From Candidatus Aenigmatarchaeota archaeon (GTDB lineage Archaea; Aenigmatarchaeota; Aenigmatarchaeia; GW2011-AR5): a stretch of 64,000 nucleotides of DNA. The notes below the pieces were generated by a model. The model was not told the DNA's origin and ran no database searches. It saw only the letters and a list, made by a program, of their open reading frames with translations. The DNA lies in the NCBI GenBank assembly GCA_016184005.1, contig JACPDL010000002.1, forward strand, positions 1 to 64,000, given 5' to 3'. Of the stretch, positions 10,907 through 59,509 are shown one piece after another; within the stretch, counting starts at the first letter, position 1, and each line of letters opens with the position of its first letter. The position numbers and the translations under genes were made by a program.

Positions 10907-10961
10907 ATTCTCAAAAAGCGCAGCTTTTTGGAATCTCGGAGAAGCTTCGCTTCTCCCAAGA
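10907..10961. repeat. twin mini-hairpin unit, copy 1
   Basis: ATTCTCAAAAAGC-GCA-GCTTTTTGGAATCTCGGAGAAGC-TTC-GCTTCTCCCAAGA. Confidence 0.8.
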
Positions 10962-11575: not shown

Positions 11576-12198
11576 TTGAACACCAGATTCACAAATTTTT
11601 CTACGCCGTACAAAACATAATGGTCTTTTATAACTTCTTTGATCAGGGTCTTATCTTTCTGCCTTTTGAAATCCTCTAAAGTCATCACCACGGCATTAAG
11701 CTCTTTGCCATATTTTGCATATATTTCTTTTGTTATTTTATCTGTTCCGGCTTTTGTTCTGCTTATCAGCAGAATATCAATGTCGCTTTCTTTTGTCGCC
11801 GTGCCTTTGGTATATGAACCAAACAGAACAATCGAAATCGGAGTAATGGTTGATTCGGCAGATTTAACAAAATCCTCTAGTATTATTTTTAGCTCTTTGT
11901 TTGAATTGTAAAAATCATTTTTCTTTTCAATCTCACTTAGATTTACCAATGCGATTGTTTTTTCGGCGCCTAAATTTATAGAACAAAGATAAGATTTGCC
12001 TGCTTTTTCCTTGGTGATGACATCATCTTTGACTAATTTATTGACAGTTCTGTGGACGAACGAATAATACTCTTTTAGAGACTTGGCTATCTCATTTATA
12101 GTAAACTTTCGTTCCGTATTTCTTGCCAATAAATCAACAATTTTTAGTTCAAGCTTCATACTCAGGATACCACCTATCTTCAGATTCATGGTTAGCAA
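11572..12198 (-). CDS. MNT-type nucleotidyltransferase with N-terminal winged helix
   Basis: IVLFGSYTKGTATKESDIDILLIS (GSxxxGxxxxxSDID) after an HTH region. Confidence 0.82.
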   Translation of the reverse strand: MLTMNLKIGGILSMKLELKIVDLLARNTERKFTINEIAKSLKEYYSFVHRTVNKLVKDDVITKEKAGKSYLCSINLGAEKTIALVNLSEIEKKNDFYNSNKELKIILEDFVKSAESTITPISIVLFGSYTKGTATKESDIDILLISRTKAGTDKITKEIYAKYGKELNAVVMTLEDFKRQKDKTLIKEVIKDHYVLYGVEKFVNLVFK

Positions 12199-12430
12199 AG
12201 CTAACCTGAATCTCTAAGATAACTTATGTTATCTTAAGAGATGGTGGAGAAAACCAGTAAATCCACAAATATAAATGTGGTTTCCTGGTATCACAACCAT
12301 CGTTTAGTAATACCACATACCACCGTTTTCGTTCAAAAGACAAGTCTTTTGGCGACTTAGGAAAGCTTTGCTTTCCTCAAGTCAAACGATGGTTGTTGAT
12401 ATTATCACTATTTATGATAATATTATCACT

Positions 12431-14123: not shown

Positions 14124-15602
14124 TCAAAGCTCAAACCTGTCGGTTGCTGTCATGTTTATCCAGTAAGGATTTACATTTGTGTTGTTGACGAATTGCAATG
14201 TTGAGCCACCAGGATCTGTCCTGTCAGCCAGCACCCAGCCTGTACTTGAACCATTTATATTGTATCTCATATATCTCCAGTTTGAACCCAAGCTTGATAG
14301 TATTGAAGATACATTGAAATTACCTGTAGCGGATGCGTTTCTTCCTGTACCTATTATGTCCGACTCTATTGGCATATCGAATGAATTCCATCCCGGCGTT
14401 AAAGGCGCGGTTTCATGTTTGGTTATGTTGTACCATCCTTTGTAAGTTATCTTGGTTGTATTCGAGTGCGTTTGTGTTATTGTTTCTGTGATATTTTCGT
14501 TTGATGTAGCACTTATTGAATTTATATCTGCTGTTGCATTGAGTGTGAGATTGAAATATACCGGTGGATCCCATCCTAATCTGGCTGTAGTATTAACGAC
14601 AACGAATAATGTATTAACGCCGCTTGTTGAAACATTGTACTGGAATCCTGCAAATGAATAAACGTTCGATACTGTCGAATCTAAAGCAGATCCCATTTGT
14701 GTATCGGTTCCTGAGTCGAATGCGCCGTTGCCGTTTGTGTCGTTCATCAATCTAACATTTACAATATGGTCATCTGTCAACCCGCTTGCAGCTGCTCGTA
14801 TAATCTTAATAACAGAGATGTTTACACCCTCGCCTGTTGCAGTGAAGTTCAACCTCACAAGGGCAACATTTGCTTCATTTGAAGGCAAACATCTTTTCGT
14901 ATTCACCGCACATTCAGGCGCATCGGATCCTTGGCCTCCTACGAGACTTACACCTGTAACACTAAGTCTTCCGAATATCAAAACCTGGCTGCCTTCTGCT
15001 GTTGTCAGTGTCTCTGTTATGTTGAATGCAGAACCAGAGCCAATAGTATTAACGTCACCGGTGCCGTTAATATTAAAGCGGAATGTCTTCCCTACAGCAT
15101 TGCCTGATGTATTGACAACAACAAACAGTGAATGCGCTGATGTTGTAATATTGAAGTTTATCCCTGCAAATACATATTGCCCGGCAGTTGTTGAATTCTG
15201 GGCTGTGGCTATTTGTGAATCACTTGTCAGATCGAATACACCATTCAGATTCGTGTCATTGTACAATCTGATATTAATTATATCTGTGTCATTTGAACTG
15301 CCGCTTCGTGTAATTTTTATAATGCTAATGTTCATTCCTTCGCCTGCTGCAGATAAGTTGTACCTCATTATCGACATATTTGAGGATCCGAATGCTATTG
15401 TTGTGTTTGCAACATGTGTGCCTGTCATTGCCAATGTTCCAAATATCTTTGTTGTGTTTGACTGTGTTGTTGTAAGTGTGATGTTCGTTGAGCCTGTTAA
15501 ATTCTCTCCAGATGCGCTGCCAATCAAACTGACGTCACCTCTTGCTACTAAGCTTAAATTGAATGTAAAACCTCCAATAGTTGTAGAACTGTTAGTCGAC
15601 AC
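14124..15602 (-). CDS. giant repeat surface protein, C-terminal piece (frame open to about 15768)
   Basis: same ~110-aa repeat (FNDT[DN]..G.F....D) as the two upstream pieces. Confidence 0.7.
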   Translation of the reverse strand: MSTNSSTTIGGFTFNLSLVARGDVSLIGSASGENLTGSTNITLTTTQSNTTKIFGTLAMTGTHVANTTIAFGSSNMSIMRYNLSAAGEGMNISIIKITRSGSSNDTDIINIRLYNDTNLNGVFDLTSDSQIATAQNSTTAGQYVFAGINFNITTSAHSLFVVVNTSGNAVGKTFRFNINGTGDVNTIGSGSAFNITETLTTAEGSQVLIFGRLSVTGVSLVGGQGSDAPECAVNTKRCLPSNEANVALVRLNFTATGEGVNISVIKIIRAAASGLTDDHIVNVRLMNDTNGNGAFDSGTDTQMGSALDSTVSNVYSFAGFQYNVSTSGVNTLFVVVNTTARLGWDPPVYFNLTLNATADINSISATSNENITETITQTHSNTTKITYKGWYNITKHETAPLTPGWNSFDMPIESDIIGTGRNASATGNFNVSSILSSLGSNWRYMRYNINGSSTGWVLADRTDPGGSTLQFVNNTNVNPYWINMTATDRFEL

Positions 15603-15618
15603 GACAAATAAGAGTGTT

Positions 15619-15759
15619 TTGTCACTGCCTGCTGGAATGTTGAGCTGGAAGCCTGTGAAGACATACTGGCCTGAAGGCGATGTTGTGTTAACCCCGACTG
15701 TTCCTAGTGATGTGTCGCCTGAATTGAATGTGCCGCTTAGATCAGTGTCGTTGAATAAT
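15619..15759. repeat. exact 141-bp repeat, copy 1
   Basis: TTGTCACTGCCTGCTGG...GTGTCGTTGAATAAT identical to 17514-17654. Confidence 0.92.
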
Positions 15760-17437
15760 CTGTTCCTGTTCTGGTAATATTGAGTACAGTAACATTGGCA
15801 CCTTCGCTGGTTGCTGTAATATTCAACTGCAATACGCTAAATCCGCCTGTGTTTATCTCAACGAAATCTGCATTCAATACCTTGCCTGTTAAGGTTACTG
15901 TGCCATAGATTAAGATTCTGTTTGATACAGGTGTTGTCAACGTTTCAGTTACATTATTTGCTGTTGTCTCGGTTATGGTATTTACATCGCTTGTTGTGTT
16001 GACATTAAACCTGAATGTCTTTCCGCCTGTTGCTGCTGCGCTTGAAGTATTAGTAACAACTATCAATGATTTTCTGCTACCCTGTGGGATGTTATACGTC
16101 AGTCCTGCAAATTCATACTGTCCAGCAGATGTTGTGTTAACAGCTGGCCCTATTTGAGTGTCGCCTGCGTTGAATGTACCTGAAAGGTCCGTGTCGTTGA
16201 ATAAGCGGACATTAGAAATATCGTTGTCTGTCGCTGACTCGTTGCGTGTAATTTTTATCACGCTTACGTTCATTCCTTCTCCGCCTGCTGTCAAGTTAAG
16301 CAGCATCACAGAAACGTTTGCAGTATTTATTACCCTTGTTGCAGGAGCAAGGCTGCTGCCTGTAATGCTAAGTGAGACTGTTTCTGCAGTATTCGATCCG
16401 GTACTTGTGAGTGTTATATTAGAAGAACCTGTGAGGTTTTCACCTGTAGTAGTACCAATCAAATTGGCAGCACCTGTGCCATTTAACGCAAGATTGAATG
16501 TGACATCATTTGTATTGTTTGTTGTTACCACTAAGAATAATGATTTACCAGCTACTGGAACATTGAAGCTAAGGCCGCTAAATACATACTGACTTGATGT
16601 TGTTGTGTTCAAGCCTACCGTTCCTAGTGCTCCGTCGCCTGCGTTGAATGTTCCGCTTAGGTCAGTGTCATTGTATAATGAAACATTGAATATATGGCCA
16701 TCTGATGCGTTGCCACCTCTTGTTACGTTGAGGACAGTTATGTTTACACCTTCACCCAAAGGTGTTATGTTGAATCGGATTACAGAAATGCCATCTGCGC
16801 TTATTGAAACAGCTGAATTGATAACATTTGAGCCTGTAAAGGTAACCTTGCCATGAATTGTTGTTGTTACTGATTCTGGTGTTGTAAGCGTAACATTTGC
16901 ATCTGCTGTCAGGTTTCTGCTTGATTCTGCACCTACCAGCTGGATATCTCCTGTTTTATTCAAACTAAGGCTGAATCGGGTGCCACCTGTTCCTGACGCA
17001 CCTGATGTATTCACTACCACAAACAGTGTGTTGATGCCTGATGTTGAAATATTATATTGGAAGTTTGTTATTACAAACTTTGCAGCTGCTGTTGTGGTAT
17101 TGAGAGCAGGACCTATCTGTGTATCGGCCGCCGCATCGAATGCACCATTGCCGTTTGTATCATTGAACAATCTTACATTTGTCAGGTTTGCTTCTGTTGC
17201 TGTTCCGTTTATTGTAACATTAATTAGTGATATATTGAAACCTTCGCCAGTTGCGCTGAAGTTCAGCTGCAGTATTGCTAGGTTAGCAGTATCAACAACA
17301 ATTGTTGCAGGTGAACGCGATGTTCCAGTTACTGTTAGTGTTCCATGTGATGTTGCATTGCCGGACATTGTTGTTGTTAACGTAATATTTGTGCTTGCAG
17401 TCAGATTTAGGCCGGATGCACCAGTTATGGCATTCAT
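15737..17437 (-). CDS. giant repeat surface protein, middle piece (frame open to about 17660)
   Basis: same repeat; ends out of frame as ...NITRTGTDYSTTLI* at the edge of an exact 141-bp repeat. Confidence 0.7.
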   Translation of the reverse strand: MNAITGASGLNLTASTNITLTTTMSGNATSHGTLTVTGTSRSPATIVVDTANLAILQLNFSATGEGFNISLINVTINGTATEANLTNVRLFNDTNGNGAFDAAADTQIGPALNTTTAAAKFVITNFQYNISTSGINTLFVVVNTSGASGTGGTRFSLSLNKTGDIQLVGAESSRNLTADANVTLTTPESVTTTIHGKVTFTGSNVINSAVSISADGISVIRFNITPLGEGVNITVLNVTRGGNASDGHIFNVSLYNDTDLSGTFNAGDGALGTVGLNTTTSSQYVFSGLSFNVPVAGKSLFLVVTTNNTNDVTFNLALNGTGAANLIGTTTGENLTGSSNITLTSTGSNTAETVSLSITGSSLAPATRVINTANVSVMLLNLTAGGEGMNVSVIKITRNESATDNDISNVRLFNDTDLSGTFNAGDTQIGPAVNTTSAGQYEFAGLTYNIPQGSRKSLIVVTNTSSAAATGGKTFRFNVNTTSDVNTITETTANNVTETLTTPVSNRILIYGTVTLTGKVLNADFVEINTGGFSVLQLNITATSEGANVTVLNITRTGTDYSTTLI

Positions 17438-17513
17438 ATCGCCTATTGCAAGTATGCCTGCGCCAAATGTGCGGCCACCTGTATTATTAACAGTGAGAAC
17501 AACAAACAGGCTC

Positions 17514-17654
17514 TTGTCACTGCCTGCTGGAATGTTGAGCTGGAAGCCTGTGAAGACATACTGGCCTGAAGGCGATGTTGTGTTAACCCCGACTGTTCCT
17601 AGTGATGTGTCGCCTGAATTGAATGTGCCGCTTAGATCAGTGTCGTTGAATAAT
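17514..17654. repeat. exact 141-bp repeat, copy 2
   Basis: identical to 15619-15759; the ORF breaks at the right-hand end of both copies. Confidence 0.92.
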
Positions 17655-20600
17655 AACTGCTTCGCCTGTTGCTGAAATATTGAGCCTGATTACACTTAAT
17701 CCGGCCTGATTAATTGCGACAGTTGATGGATTGAGAGACGTGCCTCTTACTATCATGCTGCCATGTATTTTTGTTTCGACAGACGAGGTTGTAGTTGTAA
17801 GGGTGATATTCGTTGAGCTTGTGAGGTTTTCTCCTGTTGTTGCACCTATAACGCTATAATCGCCTCTGTTGGCAAGACTGAAATTGAAGGTCTTATTACC
17901 TGCTGTTGATGAGTCATTTATTGTAATGACAACAAAGAGTGTTTTTCCTCCTGCTGTGAAATCGAAGCCCAGTCCTGCAAATACATACTTTCCTGATGCT
18001 GATGTATTTAACGGGTTTCCAATTCTTGTGTCGCCTGAGTTGAATGTGCCGCTTAGATCAGTGTCATTGAACAATGATACATTGTACACTTCTCCGTCAG
18101 CAACTGATCCAGTTCTTGTGAGATTCAACACACTAAGGTTCATGCCTTCTCCTGTTGATGTAAAGTTAAGCTGCAACACAGTCAATCCAGATGTATTGAC
18201 AACCTTGTTTGCAGGTGCTGTTGTCCTTCCTGTAACAGTTGTTACCCCATGTATTGTTGCCGTGTTTGATGTAGCAGTTGTCAGTGTTTCTGTAATATTT
18301 GCACCGGATGTTGTTCCTACTGCATTTATGTCAGAAGCAGACGCTAAGCTCAGGTTGAATGTGTTGCCTGCGGTTGAGTTTGTCGATACCACAACAAGCA
18401 AGGTGTAGTTTGCAACTGATGTGGTTGATATGTTGTAATTTATTCCAAGAAATTCATACTTGCTGCTTGCTGTAGTGTTCTGCGTTGTTCCTATTCTAAG
18501 ATCGCCTGCGTTGAACGTGCCTGAGAGGTCTGTATCGTTGAACAAGGTAACGTTGAATATATTTCCTTCAGCGGCTGTTCCGCCGCGTGTCAGCTTTATC
18601 ACAGAGATATTCATTCCTTCATTTGTTGATGTGAAATTTAATTGCAGAACAGAAATACCTGCCACATTAACCGCTCTTGTTGTCTGCAACAGGTTTGTGC
18701 CTGTTACTGACAGTGTTCCGCCTATTGTTGCTTGGCTTGAAGTGGTTGTTGTAAGAACTTCTGTCACGTTTGTTGCTGTAACAGCGCCAACAGCTTCTAT
18801 GTCGCCTGTGCCATTGATGCTCAGGTTGAATGTCTTTCCAGCAGCTCCTGCCGCTGTTGATGTATTAACAACTATAAAGACGCTGTTAACGCCGCTTGTT
18901 GTAATATTAAACTGGAAAGTTGTCGTAAATTTGAATGTACTCGCTGTTGTTGTATTAAGTTGTGGGCCTATTGTTGTATCGCTTGCTGAATCAAAAACGC
19001 CATTTCCGTTTGTGTCGTTGACAAGCCTTACATTCGTCAGGTTCGCCTCTGTGGCGCTTCCTATCACCGATATGTTGAATGTCGCTATGTTAAATCCTTC
19101 GCCAACTGAAGTAAAGTTCAACAGCATAACAGATGTCTCTGTTCCTATAGGCACTGTAGAGTTGACAAGGTTCGTGCCTGTTACAGTCAAGTTGCCGAAT
19201 ACTGTTGATGACGTTGAAGTAGTGCTTGTCAGATTTTCTGTAATATTTACTGCTGTTGTTGCACCGATTGCGTCAACATCTGTTGTTGTATTTATAGAGA
19301 AGTTAATTTGCCTGAGCACAGACGTTGCTGTAGTGCCAACTTGAATAACAGCAAACAAGCTTTGGTTTGCGCTTGTTGTTACATTGAACTGGAAACCTGT
19401 AAAAGTATATTGGCCACCTGTATTGTTTGCTGTTTGTGTTGAACCTATTTGTGTCGTGTCTGTTGTAGCTGAATATGTTCCACTAAGATCGGTATCGCTG
19501 AATAATTTAATATTTACTATTTCTGCTTCTCGTGCATTTACTCCTGCGCGTGTTAATTTTATAACTGATATGTTCATCTGCTCGCCGGATGCGGTGAAGT
19601 TATAACGGATTACAGAGACATTAACAGAATTGACAACAACTGTTGTTGCTATCTGGTTTGCTCCGCTTATGTTCAATAGTCCTGAAACTGTGACATTAGT
19701 GGTTGATGCGTTGAAGAATCCGTTTGAAGTTCCACGCACCTGCACAACGAATGTCTTGCTGCCGGTTGTTGTTGGCGCCTGGAAGTTTTTTACTGTTATA
19801 TTAAACTTTCCACCGACACCAAGATTACCTCCTGATCCAGGACCTGTACAGTTTATTGCATTTAACGCTGCTGTTACAGTCTTTGTCCAGCCACGATCAC
19901 ACGTCACATCACCGGCAGCAGGATCCGTATATGCGGAAGCCGTGTAATCTATCATGATGCTGTTTATAGTCTCGCCGCCTGTGTTCTCAACAGTGAAATT
20001 GTAATTATCAGAAGCTGTTATTTTCGTTGATGTGAAATCGAGTACAGCTGTGGCAGTTAAATCTGTGATCTGCGTTTCACCAACTGGATTAAGAGGCAAT
20101 CCGGTTGCTGTTACAGATATAGCTGATGAGCTTCCTGTAACAGGCACGTTTGCTGCTATGCTAATGTTTGCATCCAATAGATTGCCACCAGTTGCTGTTG
20201 AATTTATATCGTAAGCAAGTATCAATCTTGTGTCTGCAGTTGCAGTCACATTAAGCAATTGTGAAGTCCCACTACCAAAAATCAGAAGGCTGCTTGTCTT
20301 GGTTGCTGTGGCGATAAGGAAGTCGCCGGCGTTAATGCCTCCGCTCCTGTCTGTGTCATTGTACAATTTAGCAGCCGAAACATCGTCGTTATTGGTGTTG
20401 TTCATTGATACATTAATCTGTGTAATATTCATCTGCTCGCCAGCTGCCGTTAATGTGATGTTCAATATTGGGACATCAAGCTGGCCGTCGTTTGCTGTTG
20501 CAGGTGTGAGATCAGAGCCTGCAATGGTCAAAGTACCAAATATCATTGTCACGTTGCCGTTTGTAGTAGTCAGTGTGATGTTCGACGAGCCTGTTATGTT

Positions 20601-22997
20601 CACATTAGATGTAGCGCTGAACGCATTCAAGCTGCCTGTAGAATTCAAGCTCAGGTTGAAAGTAGCGCCGCCGGTGCTTGCTGAACCGTTTGTTGTAACA
20701 ACTACAAGCAATGACGAGCCTGCTGTTGTTACACTGTAGTTTATTCTCCTGAACAGATACGCACTTGCAGTTGTAGTATTAACTCCTACAGTCGCGCTTG
20801 TTTCTGTTCCGTTCAATATTGCTAAGTCGCCTGCGTTGAATGTTCCGCTTCTGTCTGTGTCGTTGTACAACGTTACATTAAATATGCCATCGTTATCCGT
20901 AGCTGTTCCTGTTCTTGTAATGTTAATCTGTGTGATGTTCATCTGCTCGCCTGTTGCTGTGAAGTTCAGCAGCAGCACTGCTACTCCAGCCGTGTTTATT
21001 GCTGTGGTATTGGAATTCAGGGCTTTGCCTACAATTGAAAGCGCACCGTGTATTGTTGTTGTTCCTGATTGTGCACTAGCGAACGACATATTTGCAGTAC
21101 CAGTGCTTGTAAGATTTTGTGCTGTTGTAGCACCGATAACATTTATGTCTCCTGAGTTATTCAAACCAAAGGAGACTGTTCTGCCTCCTATTGCTGCTGA
21201 TATGTTTGTTACAAGTATAAGCCTGTGTGGTATCGATCCGGTAGAAATATTGAACTGGAATCCTGTGAACGTGTATTGACCAGAAGATGAAGTGTTTAAT
21301 GCCGCACCAAGCTGTGTATCTGTGCCTGAATCAAAGGCAGCGTTGTTATTCGTGTCGTTGAACAACCGCACCAAAAGAACATCGGTGTCTGCGGCACTTC
21401 CTGATCTTGTAACATTGAAAACAGTTATGTTCATGCCTTCTCCTGTTGCGTTCAGTTCAAAGTAAGCCATGACAAGATTAGCTGTATTCACTGCTTTTGA
21501 TGTAGGAGCAAGATTATAGCCAGTTACTTGGAGGCTGCCGTGAATTGTCGCCTGTGCAGACTGAAGGGTTGAGACATTCACTTCAGTCACATTTGCGCCA
21601 GAAGATGTACCGATTGAATTGACATCAGAAGTTGCATTTATGTTGAAATTGAATGTTCTGCCTGCTGTTGCAGATGTATTTAAGTCAACAACAAGGAACA
21701 GCGTGTCATTATTCGTCACGCGATAATCAATACCCGCAAAGAGATATTGTCCGTTTGTAGTTGTTGTAGAGGCATTGAAAACAGGTGTATCCGTAGAATC
21801 CAGCACATTATTCTTGTCCGTGTCATTTACAAGCCTTACTGTCTTGAAATCAACATCAGTTGCGGTCCCTGCACGTGTGACTTTTATTACGCTTACATTG
21901 AATGCCTCCCCAACCGTAGTGAAAGCGTATCTGATCACTGTTATGTTCGTGCGGTTAACCACCACGTTTACAGGCGTCATTGAGGTTGCTGTTATATTTA
22001 TCGTTCCACTTACAACAACATTGGGGCTGCTTTCATTTGCAATCGTGTACGTGCCGTTTGCGAGAGAACCATTTACAATTATAGTGAACCTTCTTGTTTG
22101 AGCTATCGCCGATGCGCCCCAGTTATTTATGACTATGTTTGTAGACTGACCCTTTTCAAGCTCGCTTCCAGTCCCAGCAGGCTTTAAACATCTAATAATA
22201 TTATTTGCCGAGTCATTTGCCAAATTCCAAGCAACTCCTGTTGTTGCCGGAATTTTCGGACATGTGACATTTGCTTCGCCTGTATCTGTGAATCCTGAAC
22301 CCGTATAACCTATCCTAATTTCATCTATGCTATCGAAATTGACTCCATCGGTTGCGTTGTTTGTTATAGTGAAGTTGTAGCTTCTCTGCTCATCTATACG
22401 CGATGTCGTGTCGTTCACGCTTGCTGATGCCTGAAGCTCGAGAAGTGTAATTTGCAAAAGGGAGCTGTTTGAAATGAAACTTGTAGTGGCTGTAGTATTG
22501 TATTGAATTGATACATTGAATGTTGGCGTTCCAGGGCTGTTTCTTGCAGTCAGGCCGAGGACGCGCAGTTGAACAACACCTGTCAGTGTTGCGTTCGCTT
22601 GCGTGGTGTTGCCCGTGGCGTTACAGGCAAGAAGCCCGCTCAGAGGCGAGATATTAATCCATGTATCAGTGCCGCTGTTAGGACACCTCAGGTTTTGTGC
22701 TGTTATGTTCACAAAACCGGCTTCAGAGATGTTGACGTATATTGTCCTAATATCCGTGTTCTGCCCACCGCCGACGCTCGTCAGGTTTATCGTCAGGTTC
22801 AGGTCAATGCCTGTCTGGTTTGTATCAAAGGTGGCGTTGCCAAATACTACGTTGTTCGAGCTTAAGGAAACGGTGGCGAAGCCTAGAACATAGTAAGCCG
22901 TGAATACGAGCGCAAAGACTGCTGCGAATATCAAGCCTGCCTGTATGAGACCTTTCAGTCCTTTCATTCCTTTGAGACCTTTCTGGCTTTTGTCCAT
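17637..22997 (-). CDS. giant repeat surface protein, N-terminal piece (signal/TM plus many repeats)
   Basis: LIQAGLIFAAVFALVFTAYYVLG; eight FNDTD-type repeats; ends out of frame as ...ISATGEAVIIQRH*. Confidence 0.8.
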   Translation of the reverse strand: MDKSQKGLKGMKGLKGLIQAGLIFAAVFALVFTAYYVLGFATVSLSSNNVVFGNATFDTNQTGIDLNLTINLTSVGGGQNTDIRTIYVNISEAGFVNITAQNLRCPNSGTDTWINISPLSGLLACNATGNTTQANATLTGVVQLRVLGLTARNSPGTPTFNVSIQYNTTATTSFISNSSLLQITLLELQASASVNDTTSRIDEQRSYNFTITNNATDGVNFDSIDEIRIGYTGSGFTDTGEANVTCPKIPATTGVAWNLANDSANNIIRCLKPAGTGSELEKGQSTNIVINNWGASAIAQTRRFTIIVNGSLANGTYTIANESSPNVVVSGTINITATSMTPVNVVVNRTNITVIRYAFTTVGEAFNVSVIKVTRAGTATDVDFKTVRLVNDTDKNNVLDSTDTPVFNASTTTTNGQYLFAGIDYRVTNNDTLFLVVDLNTSATAGRTFNFNINATSDVNSIGTSSGANVTEVNVSTLQSAQATIHGSLQVTGYNLAPTSKAVNTANLVMAYFELNATGEGMNITVFNVTRSGSAADTDVLLVRLFNDTNNNAAFDSGTDTQLGAALNTSSSGQYTFTGFQFNISTGSIPHRLILVTNISAAIGGRTVSFGLNNSGDINVIGATTAQNLTSTGTANMSFASAQSGTTTIHGALSIVGKALNSNTTAINTAGVAVLLLNFTATGEQMNITQINITRTGTATDNDGIFNVTLYNDTDRSGTFNAGDLAILNGTETSATVGVNTTTASAYLFRRINYSVTTAGSSLLVVVTTNGSASTGGATFNLSLNSTGSLNAFSATSNVNITGSSNITLTTTNGNVTMIFGTLTIAGSDLTPATANDGQLDVPILNITLTAAGEQMNITQINVSMNNTNNDDVSAAKLYNDTDRSGGINAGDFLIATATKTSSLLIFGSGTSQLLNVTATADTRLILAYDINSTATGGNLLDANISIAANVPVTGSSSAISVTATGLPLNPVGETQITDLTATAVLDFTSTKITASDNYNFTVENTGGETINSIMIDYTASAYTDPAAGDVTCDRGWTKTVTAALNAINCTGPGSGGNLGVGGKFNITVKNFQAPTTTGSKTFVVQVRGTSNGFFNASTTNVTVSGLLNISGANQIATTVVVNSVNVSVIRYNFTASGEQMNISVIKLTRAGVNAREAEIVNIKLFSDTDLSGTYSATTDTTQIGSTQTANNTGGQYTFTGFQFNVTTSANQSLFAVIQVGTTATSVLRQINFSINTTTDVDAIGATTAVNITENLTSTTSTSSTVFGNLTVTGTNLVNSTVPIGTETSVMLLNFTSVGEGFNIATFNISVIGSATEANLTNVRLVNDTNGNGVFDSASDTTIGPQLNTTTASTFKFTTTFQFNITTSGVNSVFIVVNTSTAAGAAGKTFNLSINGTGDIEAVGAVTATNVTEVLTTTTSSQATIGGTLSVTGTNLLQTTRAVNVAGISVLQLNFTSTNEGMNISVIKLTRGGTAAEGNIFNVTLFNDTDLSGTFNAGDLRIGTTQNTTASSKYEFLGINYNISTTSVANYTLLVVVSTNSTAGNTFNLSLASASDINAVGTTSGANITETLTTATSNTATIHGVTTVTGRTTAPANKVVNTSGLTVLQLNFTSTGEGMNLSVLNLTRTGSVADGEVYNVSLFNDTDLSGTFNSGDTRIGNPLNTSASGKYVFAGLGFDFTAGGKTLFVVITINDSSTAGNKTFNFSLANRGDYSVIGATTGENLTSSTNITLTTTTSSVETKIHGSMIVRGTSLNPSTVAINQAGLSVIRLNISATGEAVIIQRH

Positions 22998-29718: not shown

Positions 29719-30124
29719 ATGATATGCTCTTAATACTCCCACGACTAATTCGAGGAAAGCAATAGCTTTCCTGAATTTCTCAAAGGACTTTTCTGAAGTC
29801 CTTTGCAGAAAAGTCGTGGGTTTCTGAGAGCATCTTCGAAGAGCAAAGCTCTTCGAGACCTTGCAGAACTTTGTTCTGCAAGGTGTCATCCCAACATTGT
29901 TTGTGTAATACATGGTGAAACAAGTTTCACCTGTACAGGAAGAACTCCGTTCTTCCTCGTATCTGCTGTCTAATCCTAAATCAAGCAAAGCTTGATTTGG
30001 ATTCATTAGAAAATCTATGAGATTTTCTATGCACCGAAATAGCTTTGCTGTTTCGAGTGTCTCAAAGGATTTTGAAGAAATCCTTTGCAGAAAAGACAGC
30101 AGTTTTAAACAATGTTGCGGATAA
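29719..30124. repeat. structured element, 'filled' copy (about 121-nt core plus four hairpin insertions)
   Basis: core matches 55251-55372; inserts about 29748-29810, 29834-29884, 29911-29961, 29973-30092. Confidence 0.85.
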
Positions 30125-30170: not shown

Positions 30171-30308
30171 GCCACCGTAGCTCAGTTGGTAGAGCGGCAG
30201 TTTCGTAAGAGGAGAAAACTACGTTTCTCCTTCTAACCTCTTCCTTTTGCAGAAAGGAAATGGAAAAGAAATAACTGCAGGCCAAGGGTTCGACTCCCTT
30301 CGGTGGCT
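30171..30308 (+). tRNA. tRNA-Thr(CGT) with 65-nt intron at 37/38
   Basis: GCCACCG/CGGTGGC acceptor, D-arm GCTC-AGTTGGTA-GAGC, anticodon stem GCAGT/ACTGC, loop TTCGTA[intron 30208-30272]A, T-arm AAGGG-TTCGACT-CCCTT, U73. Confidence 0.92.
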
Positions 30309-32660: not shown

Positions 32661-32776
32661 TGCACCAGCCGGGATTTGAACCCGGGTCATGAGCTTTTTC
32701 TGAAATATGGGATACGACACGTTCGAACGTGGGGTATTTGGGAAGCTCAGGTCCTACCAGGCTAGACTACTAGTGC
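32661..32776 (-). tRNA. tRNA-Gly(CCC) with 43-nt intron at 37/38
   Basis: GCACTAG/CTGGTGC, GTCTAGCCTGGTAGGAC, TGAGC-TTCCCA[intron 32696-32738]A-GCTCA, CCGGG-TTCAAAT-CCCGG, A73; mature 73 nt. Confidence 0.88.
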
Positions 32777-55250: not shown

Positions 55251-55372
55251 ATGATATGCTCTTAATAATCCCACGACTAAAGTCGTGGGTTTCTGAGAGC
55301 ATGTCATCCCAACATTGTTTATGTAATATCTGCTGTCTAAAGACAGCAGTTTTAAGCAATGTTGCGGATAAT
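55251..55372. repeat. structured element, 'empty' copy; two hairpins CCCACGACT-AA-AGTCGTGGG and CTGCTGTCT-AA-AGACAGCAG
   Basis: matches the core of 29719-30124; both tip loops intact. Confidence 0.85.
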
Positions 55373-56601: not shown

Positions 56602-56792
56602 AAGAGGAGAAGAAACCTTAGGTTTCTCTCCTTCTAACCTCATTTCCTAATCAAAAATATTAATAGAATAAGCTTTCTTTGCTAGAAAGCTTTCAGCTTT
56701 CTAGCAACTCAAGAAGCTTGTGCTTCTTCGAGTTTTCCAAGGTTTTTCATCATAGTTAGAAGCAAAGTGCTTGTTTAATTCCAGAAAAAGCT

Positions 56793-57233: not shown

Positions 57234-57356
57234 GATATAAACACAATCTGTGGATTTGTTTATACAGGCATACCACGACTATGACCGCTGTTTGAAAACA
57301 GTGGTATGCCATGTATCAGATTAACTTTGGCGCCGCCGGTTTAAATATTAGGTGTA

Positions 57357-57534: not shown

Positions 57535-57590
57535 ATTCTCAAAAAGCGTAGCTTTTTGGAATTCTCGGAGAAGCTTCGCTTCTCCCAAGA
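57535..57590. repeat. twin mini-hairpin unit, copy 2
   Basis: ATTCTCAAAAAGC-GTA-GCTTTTTGGAATTCTCGGAGAAGC-TTC-GCTTCTCCCAAGA; one loop change and one extra T versus copy 1. Confidence 0.8.
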
Positions 57591-59347: not shown

Positions 59348-59509
59348 CGCCGGCGGCAGGATTTGAACCTGCGCGCGCATCCGCGACAAGAAGTACCAGA
59401 GTACTTCATATCACTCACGGCGCTCTAGCTCTCAAGGATCGTCGTCATCTCAAGCCTTATCGGATCTTGAGCTAACCCTAGCGCATTTGCCAGATTCTGC
59501 CACGCCGGC
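59348..59509 (-). tRNA. tRNA-Ser(TGA) with introns at 30/31 and in the variable arm
   Basis: GCCGGCG/CGCCGGC, GCA-GAATCTGGCAAA-TGC, CTAG[40-nt intron 59438-59477]C-CTTGAGA-GCTAG, 52-nt variable region, GCAGG-TTCAAAT-CCTGC, G73. Confidence 0.8.

Follow-up and report, generated by a model that had tools for sequence, protein, structure and literature searches.

The segment at positions 29719-30124 of the window (the whole stretch of 64,000 nucleotides analysed here) is, as far as can be judged from its sequence, a copy of a non-autonomous, transposase-free element of the IS200/IS605 type (a palindrome-associated transposable element, or PATE) that carries four inserts composed of hairpins. We consider it probable that the PATE acts as host to smaller mobile double-hairpin units, which land in loops, nest in one another and are partly lost. 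The identity of the PATE, the structure of the units, their recurrence in several hosts and the occurrence of empty and filled orthologues are matters of sequence comparison; how the elements move is inferred.

The window belongs to the genome of a Ca. Aenigmatarchaeota DPANN archaeon (G000), about half of which was read, as stretches. The sister genome, G001, is approximately 93% identical to it over 123 kb, and a protein search identified a close relative, at 89% identity, in Ca. Aenigmatarchaeota isolate RIFCSPHIGHO2_01_FULL_AR5_44_11. The window contains 34 perfect hairpins (stem ≥8, loop 3-8), as compared with 3-9 in Markov sequence, and about 8 of these fall in element 29719-30124. In 464 kb of the genome, there are 2.55 hairpins (stem ≥8, loop 3-5) per kb outside the ORFs vs approximately 0.06 per kb in Markov sequence, an over-representation of about forty times in non-coding DNA. 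Elsewhere in the window, the region 14590-21670 is marked by a very long reading frame (17637-22997) and its neighbours, which consist of repeated segments, on the minus strand; the product is probably a surface protein.

A sequence-only reading had proposed that the core of 29719-30124 aligns with a second copy and is interrupted by four blocks of about 63, 51, 51 and 120 nt. Alignment bears this out. The inserts measure exactly 63, 51, 51 and 120 nt, and removal of these 285 nt leaves a core of 121 nt that is near-identical to 55251-55371. The seams lie after core positions 28, 51, 76 and 88, and all four blocks consist of hairpins, as had been described. Their placement in the two tips and the internal loop also stands; the block assigned to the spacer between the hairpins falls instead within hairpin 1, 5 nt into its 3′ arm. 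The empty copy folds with an energy of -62.6 kcal/mol (z -11.8) and the filled copy with -194.8 kcal/mol (z -19.4), a value reached by none of 100 shuffles.

Insert 1 (29747-29809, 63 nt) occupies the tip-1 loop and is a double hairpin of the type designated tau, AGGAAAGC..GCTTTCCT followed by CAAAGGACTT..AAGTCCTTTG; the tau covariance model (R2), in the training set of which this sequence is included, matches it at 29747-29811 with 84.2 bits. Insert 2 (29833-29883, 51 nt), a double hairpin beginning TCGAAGAGC in its first half and ACCTTGCAGAAC in its second, has the seam GAGAGCAT^GTCAT and recurs at the identical seam in another copy (L074:6035). Insert 3 (29909-29959, 51 nt), in the internal loop 5′ of tip 2, is of the alpha type (TACATGG..CCTGTACAGG..CCTCGTA); it scores 71.0 bits with the alpha model (R1), again as a training sequence, and has homologues in the same slot in G001, G014 and G030. 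Insert 4 (29972-30091, 120 nt), in the tip-2 loop, is a 64-nt double hairpin of the tau type, in two halves (29972-30002 and 30059-30091), at the junction of which another double hairpin, of 56 nt (30003-30030 and 30031-30058), is nested. The outer 64-nt unit occurs alone at L078, L080, L082, L087 and L090, and also in G001 (L207:8792). Inserts 1, 3 and 4 thus have their seams in loops, and the tip-loop inserts are situated at CTA^AAG, as claimed, with a seam ambiguity of at most 2 nt. The blocks can be retained as cassettes, with the amendment that the unit is the double hairpin rather than the mini-hairpin, and that tip 2 holds one unit within another.

A search of the genome with the 122-nt core, which had been suggested as a check, brought to light about 30 more copies, complete or partial, which fall into at least three subfamilies, and copies were found in relatives as well. 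Most are empty, and more than 20 have intact 4-nt tip loops without a scar. About a dozen are filled, with the same modules in the same slots in differing combinations.

The basic insert unit consists of two abutting hairpins, about 51-64 nt overall. In the three families recognized, the frame is conserved and the stems change freely with compensation. The alpha frame is TACA-hairpin-TGTACA-hairpin-TGTA, with stems that are unrelated between places; the tau frame is AATTC-hairpin-GAATTTCTC-hairpin-GCAGAA; and the beta frame is CTCAGAG..-GGCATC-... Model R1 detected members outside its training set in G014, G030 and G004 (E values from 1e-5 to 5e-11), so that the alpha family reaches other genera and another family of the order. 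Model R2 gave a match in G004 (E 7e-9); low-scoring tau matches are generic double hairpins and were excluded from the count. Tau units are located in PATE tips, in one tRNA intron, in one 23S rRNA intron and in intergenic DNA, an example of the last being 12183-12241 of the window (plus strand; R2 E=1.6e-9, outside the training set). The sequence-only reading had conceded that its insertion model would fail if the inserts never occurred elsewhere; the insert families do recur, in introns of tRNA genes, in insertions of the 23S and 16S rRNA genes and in intergenic arrays.

Two elements of the window are missing from G001: a 54-nt double hairpin at 56679-56732, both flanks of which are 100% identical, and a 78-nt two-hairpin element at 57236-57313 that is a weak alpha match (R1 E=0.0055), with flanks 96-100% identical. 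Intergenic arrays exist with 1, 2, 4 and 6 hairpins, the larger forms having additional pairs in the middle. One such array, element II, is present in its two-hairpin form at 10912-10956 and 57540-57585 (both plus strand), and in 4- and 6-hairpin forms at L087:502, L079:13994 and L079:1166; L088:10699 and 17708 also belong to this element, the linkers of which (GAATCTC, AAGATCTC) are conserved, and which is variously present or absent between the sister genomes. A further repeat, which contains GGTTGAT-AAGGA with GAGAACC-ta-GGTTCTC (L076:3250, L084:8671, L090:7400, L085:10287 and L091:9704), has beta-type double hairpins at one fixed point.

It was of particular value that the same loop could be found empty in one genome and filled in another. 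In G000 (L082:14846) the apical loop of the tRNA intron hairpin CCTTTCTTTC^AAAAAGAAAGG holds a tau unit, and in G001 this hairpin is empty; another tRNA-gene intron hairpin (L082:15159) is empty in G000 and beta-filled in G001. The 23S rRNA introns give a similar picture: at ACAACGCGTA G000 has a tau unit where G004 is empty, and at CAATTAAATA G004 has a beta unit where G000 is empty. Among the PATEs, a single subfamily C copy of G001 carries a unique alpha insert of 51 nt (R1 E=4e-8), and the copies near-identical to it are empty. The claim that palindromic cassettes insert into loops is supported by these orthologous pairs, and extends to intron hairpins. The two window copies, described there as direct pre/post evidence, are by themselves no direct proof of direction.

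That the tRNA and rRNA insertions are spliced introns is an inference. In the window, Rfam finds four tRNAs, three of them interrupted, and ARAGORN found none; tRNA genes with long hairpin-containing introns lie at 30171-30308, 32661-32776 and 59348-59509. Since only 14 tRNAs were found in the whole genome with Rfam at E 0.001, many of its tRNA genes are probably heavily interrupted. The 23S rRNA (L087:1922-5832, 3911 nt) and 16S rRNA (L087:7898-9640, 1743 nt) each have several insertions, and one of those in the 23S rRNA, of 575 nt, looks like an intron with a reading frame.

The hairpins could in principle have arisen in situ, by template switching or tandem duplication at palindromes, with no mobile unit involved. 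Growth of this kind does occur: in two G001 copies (L139 and L142) a PATE tip hairpin has been tandemly duplicated, a different growth route for such elements, and the insert at 56679 has AGCTTTCT in common with its left flank. The recurrence of identical family frames in unrelated hosts and genera speaks against an in-situ origin, and the insert stems are mostly unlike the host tips. We regard this alternative as unlikely, but do not discard it.

Mobile units might also move as RNA, an excised or free hairpin RNA being spliced into RNA loops by the tRNA endonuclease and ligase and then copied to DNA. The presumed tRNA and rRNA introns among the hosts and the absence of target duplication are consistent with this, and an RNA route was proposed for elements of Allomyces on account of the same lack of duplication (PMC2800124). 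Whether the PATEs are transcribed is unknown, and there is rather little probability to assign to this route. For the small units, neither an enzyme nor a signature of duplication was detected. A TA target duplication was considered for the alpha units and dropped; TA is present at several alpha seams and absent from the element II seam. Interpretation of the alpha units as IS605 elements, by application of the guide rule by eye, also failed, since the rule is satisfied at the left end in a single context and at the right end in none.

The sequence-only reading recognized that insertion would be refuted if the long form were ancestral and the short one the result of deletions. Precise loss of hairpins, by replication slippage across palindromes, would produce such a pattern, and partial losses are real: L091 lacks part of the first hairpin in tip 1, L078 lacks one inner hairpin and L092:9627 lacks half of the last. 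Alpha units are also present in the same slot across three genera and two families. In the tree of the cores, filled states are scattered rather than clustered, so both gain and loss occur, and the direction of each event is uncertain. With equal costs, parsimony favours an empty root at each slot, with a margin of one or two steps; when gain is made three times as costly as loss, three of the four slots favour a filled root. The copy tree favours an empty ancestor only mildly. Set against loss as the general explanation are the more than 20 scar-free tip loops, the predominance of empty copies in other genera, the intron hairpins filled in opposite genomes by different families and the uniquely filled G001 copy among near-identical empties. 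An ancestral long form is accordingly given a low probability. The clean loops of the empty copies and the opposite fillings of the intron loops point to insertion as the principal process, accompanied by loss and perhaps by exchange between PATE copies, which is possible.

Four of the five PATE seams are in loops, as are all three intron-hairpin seams examined in detail; 35% of PATE seams are open anyway, so the PATE figure is weak when taken alone, and the preference for loops may reflect survival only. Four of the five PATE slots are so placed that an insert disturbs neither the guides nor the cleavage sites nor the feet of the hairpins. The fifth, that of insert 2, lies within the basal helix of hairpin 1 and divides it, and any functional effect is inferred from this position. 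Identical filled forms at separate loci imply, on sequence evidence alone, that filled PATEs still moved.

Assignment of the host to the IS200/IS605 group, which had been suggested as a resemblance, rests on its insertion sites and guides. Clean empty sites in G001 are known for four other copies: GAA^ATAA three times and CAA^ATGA once, without target duplication. On the other strand, the PATE lies 3′ of TTAT (three sites) or TCAT (one). Right ends are TCAT in subfamily A and TGAT in subfamilies B and C. A subterminal hairpin is found near each end, both in the same orientation, with a guide 5′ of the hairpin base. Guide and cleavage site in IS608 pair according to a position-by-position rule. 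The IS608 cleavage sites TTAC and TCAA correspond to the guides AAAG and GAAT, respectively, which lie immediately 5′ of the hairpins (PMC5934647). When applied to the PATE, the same rule predicts AAAA for TTAT, GAAA for TCAT and CAAA for TGAT, and these are the sequences found 5′ of the PATE hairpins. At the right end, the covarying guide/cleavage base is complementary in 29 of 29 distinct copies from ten genomes (19 G..C, 10 C..G), although these copies are not independent. At the left end the guide/target base is mostly T-A; compensated pairs were seen by eye in G014 and G018 copies, C-G in L156 and L170 and G-C in L171, and two G000 copies at TCAT are exceptions that retain AAAA.

The filled window copy (29719-30124, minus strand), the ends of which are common to the approximately 30 copies, can be read accordingly: target TTAT at 30124-30121, element at 30120-29719 and right-end cleavage site TCAT at 29722-29719. 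The left guide, AAAA (30103-30106, minus strand), lies directly 5′ of the tip-2 hairpin base and pairs with the target; the right guide, GAAA (29821-29824, minus strand), lies directly 5′ of the tip-1 hairpin base and pairs with the cleavage site. The empty copy of the same subfamily (55251-55371, minus strand) has its TTAT flank at 55371-55368, TCAT at 55254-55251 and guides at 55290-55293 and 55350-55353. It is missing from the orthologous G001 locus, where the flanks match poorly; an orthologue of the filled copy was looked for in G001 and not found. No match to phage records was obtained.

As the sequence-only reading stated, neither TnpA nor TnpB is encoded in the window: a domain search detected no Y1 and no TnpB domain there. 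Its proposal to look for a Y1 transposase was only partly rewarded. In G000, fragments of Y1 lie at the ends of three contigs, which is what a repeat that interrupts assembly would be expected to produce, and no TnpB was found in that genome. Full Y1 genes are present in G001, G008, G017 and G018; none was detectable in G004 or G014, although both contain PATEs. No autonomous element with the exact ends of the PATE was found, and a Y1 element of G018 (TTAT..TGAT) was rejected as partner because its guides do not fit. The contig-end fragments of G000 (C3:117685-117783, C4:548760-548858 and C2:6-98) are copies of one Y1 insertion sequence, the right-end hairpin of which, CCACCGTATTTATACGGTGG, is like the tip of PATE subfamily C, and the guide/cleavage pair of which (GAAT/TCAA) fits the IS608 rule. 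In G040, IS605-type tip hairpins occur at many contig ends (close to those of C4, C5, C9, C20 and C34), and the genome of this relative has about 19 TnpB-like genes.

The REPIN/RAYT category (two inverted REP hairpins tagged GTAG or CGTC) does not apply to the core, because its tips have the same orientation, its guides on the aligned strand are TTTT and TTTC/TTTG, and its ends are ATSA...ATAA. The alternative of a two-hairpin ncRNA is not needed: a structured, immobile non-coding RNA gene would account for the strong fold and the compensatory changes between subfamilies, but hardly for precise presence and absence at orthologous loci, a target tetranucleotide and guide/cleavage covariation, and Rfam at gathering scores found nothing but tRNAs in the window and, at permissive thresholds, only chance-level matches to the core, so that this reading deserves almost no credence.

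PATEs were described in Haloquadratum walsbyi as IS605-related, transposase-free elements (PMC3119063). Those elements and the core have in common subterminal palindromes, an adjoining short target oligonucleotide, a length too short for a transposase and many copies, and they lack terminal inverted repeats and target duplication. The core differs in being only about 121 nt long, with a long two-tier hairpin at each end, in belonging to a different phylum, and in that guide/cleavage covariation could be demonstrated from sequence. Unlike IS608, with which it shares the pairing rule (TTAC/AAAG and TCAA/GAAT there; TTAT/AAAA, TCAT/GAAA and TGAT/CAAA here), the PATE contains no internal TnpA or TnpB.

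For the units, the closest precedents are SMR-A of Haloquadratum and the double-hairpin elements of mitochondria. SMR-A, of about 110 bp, inserts within PATE palindromes by an unknown route and without target duplication (PMC3119063). Both are small and transposase-free, and both are found in near-terminal PATE palindromes. SMR-A has inverted terminal repeats and is commonly more than 95% alike per type, whereas the units are double hairpins of 51-64 nt with stems that diverge within families; by size, terminal repeats and identity they cannot be classified as SMR-A. Unlike SMR-A, they nest in one another and lie also within presumed tRNA and rRNA introns. Double-hairpin or repetitive hairpin-forming elements are known from the mitochondria of Allomyces and sponges (PMC2800124). 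These too have paired or multiple hairpins, occur in intergenic DNA and rRNA genes, lack duplications and vary between relatives, a resemblance of kind that does not imply homology. The archaeal units have empty and filled orthologues and are inserted in apical loops of a transposon and introns; in the sponge elements the stems are conserved and the loops vary, whereas in the units the stems vary with compensation. A search of open papers for archaeal double hairpins or DPANN hairpin insertions revealed nothing closer. What seems to be new, in so far as open papers can show, is the size and form of the units, their freely changing stems in conserved frames, their nesting, the occurrence of common families in a transposon and in introns of tRNA and rRNA genes, and the before/after pairs at orthologous loci.

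Under the preferred explanation, a Y1 (HUH) TnpA supplied in trans, inferred to be a protein like the lineage's own, would mobilize the PATE in the form of single-stranded DNA. Insertion would take place 3′ of TTAT or TCAT without target duplication, and the ends would be recognized through base pairing of tetranucleotide guides and cleavage sites. The inserts would represent a second, smaller mobile unit of two abutting hairpins, in dispersed families with rapidly compensating stems. Their landing sites are envisaged as hairpin junctions and loops, both apical and internal, within structured non-coding DNA (PATEs, introns of tRNA and rRNA genes, and intergenic arrays); the units would also nest in one another and later be lost in part. 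Because they do not disrupt the guides, the cleavage sites or the feet of the hairpins in four of the five slots, they may leave filled PATEs mobile, with identical filled copies at several loci as the outcome. That the units insert while the host palindrome is single-stranded, during replication or excision, through an unidentified enzyme, is a tentative inference. The wider proposition is a real possibility, though still short of an even chance: that double hairpins of about 50-60 nt form a transposase-free, loop-targeting class of mobile element in DPANN archaea, jumping among transposon ends and tRNA and rRNA introns and nesting recursively, by an undescribed route involving single-stranded DNA or RNA.

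How tiny hairpin repeats spread has long been an open question in mitochondria and haloarchaea, in part for want of before/after pairs. This lineage supplies many: a given loop may be empty in one sister genome and filled in the other, loops of one kind hold units of different families, and units are nested. Whether loops attract insertion or merely tolerate it becomes directly testable, and the units illustrate one way in which the introns of archaeal tRNA and rRNA genes become longer.
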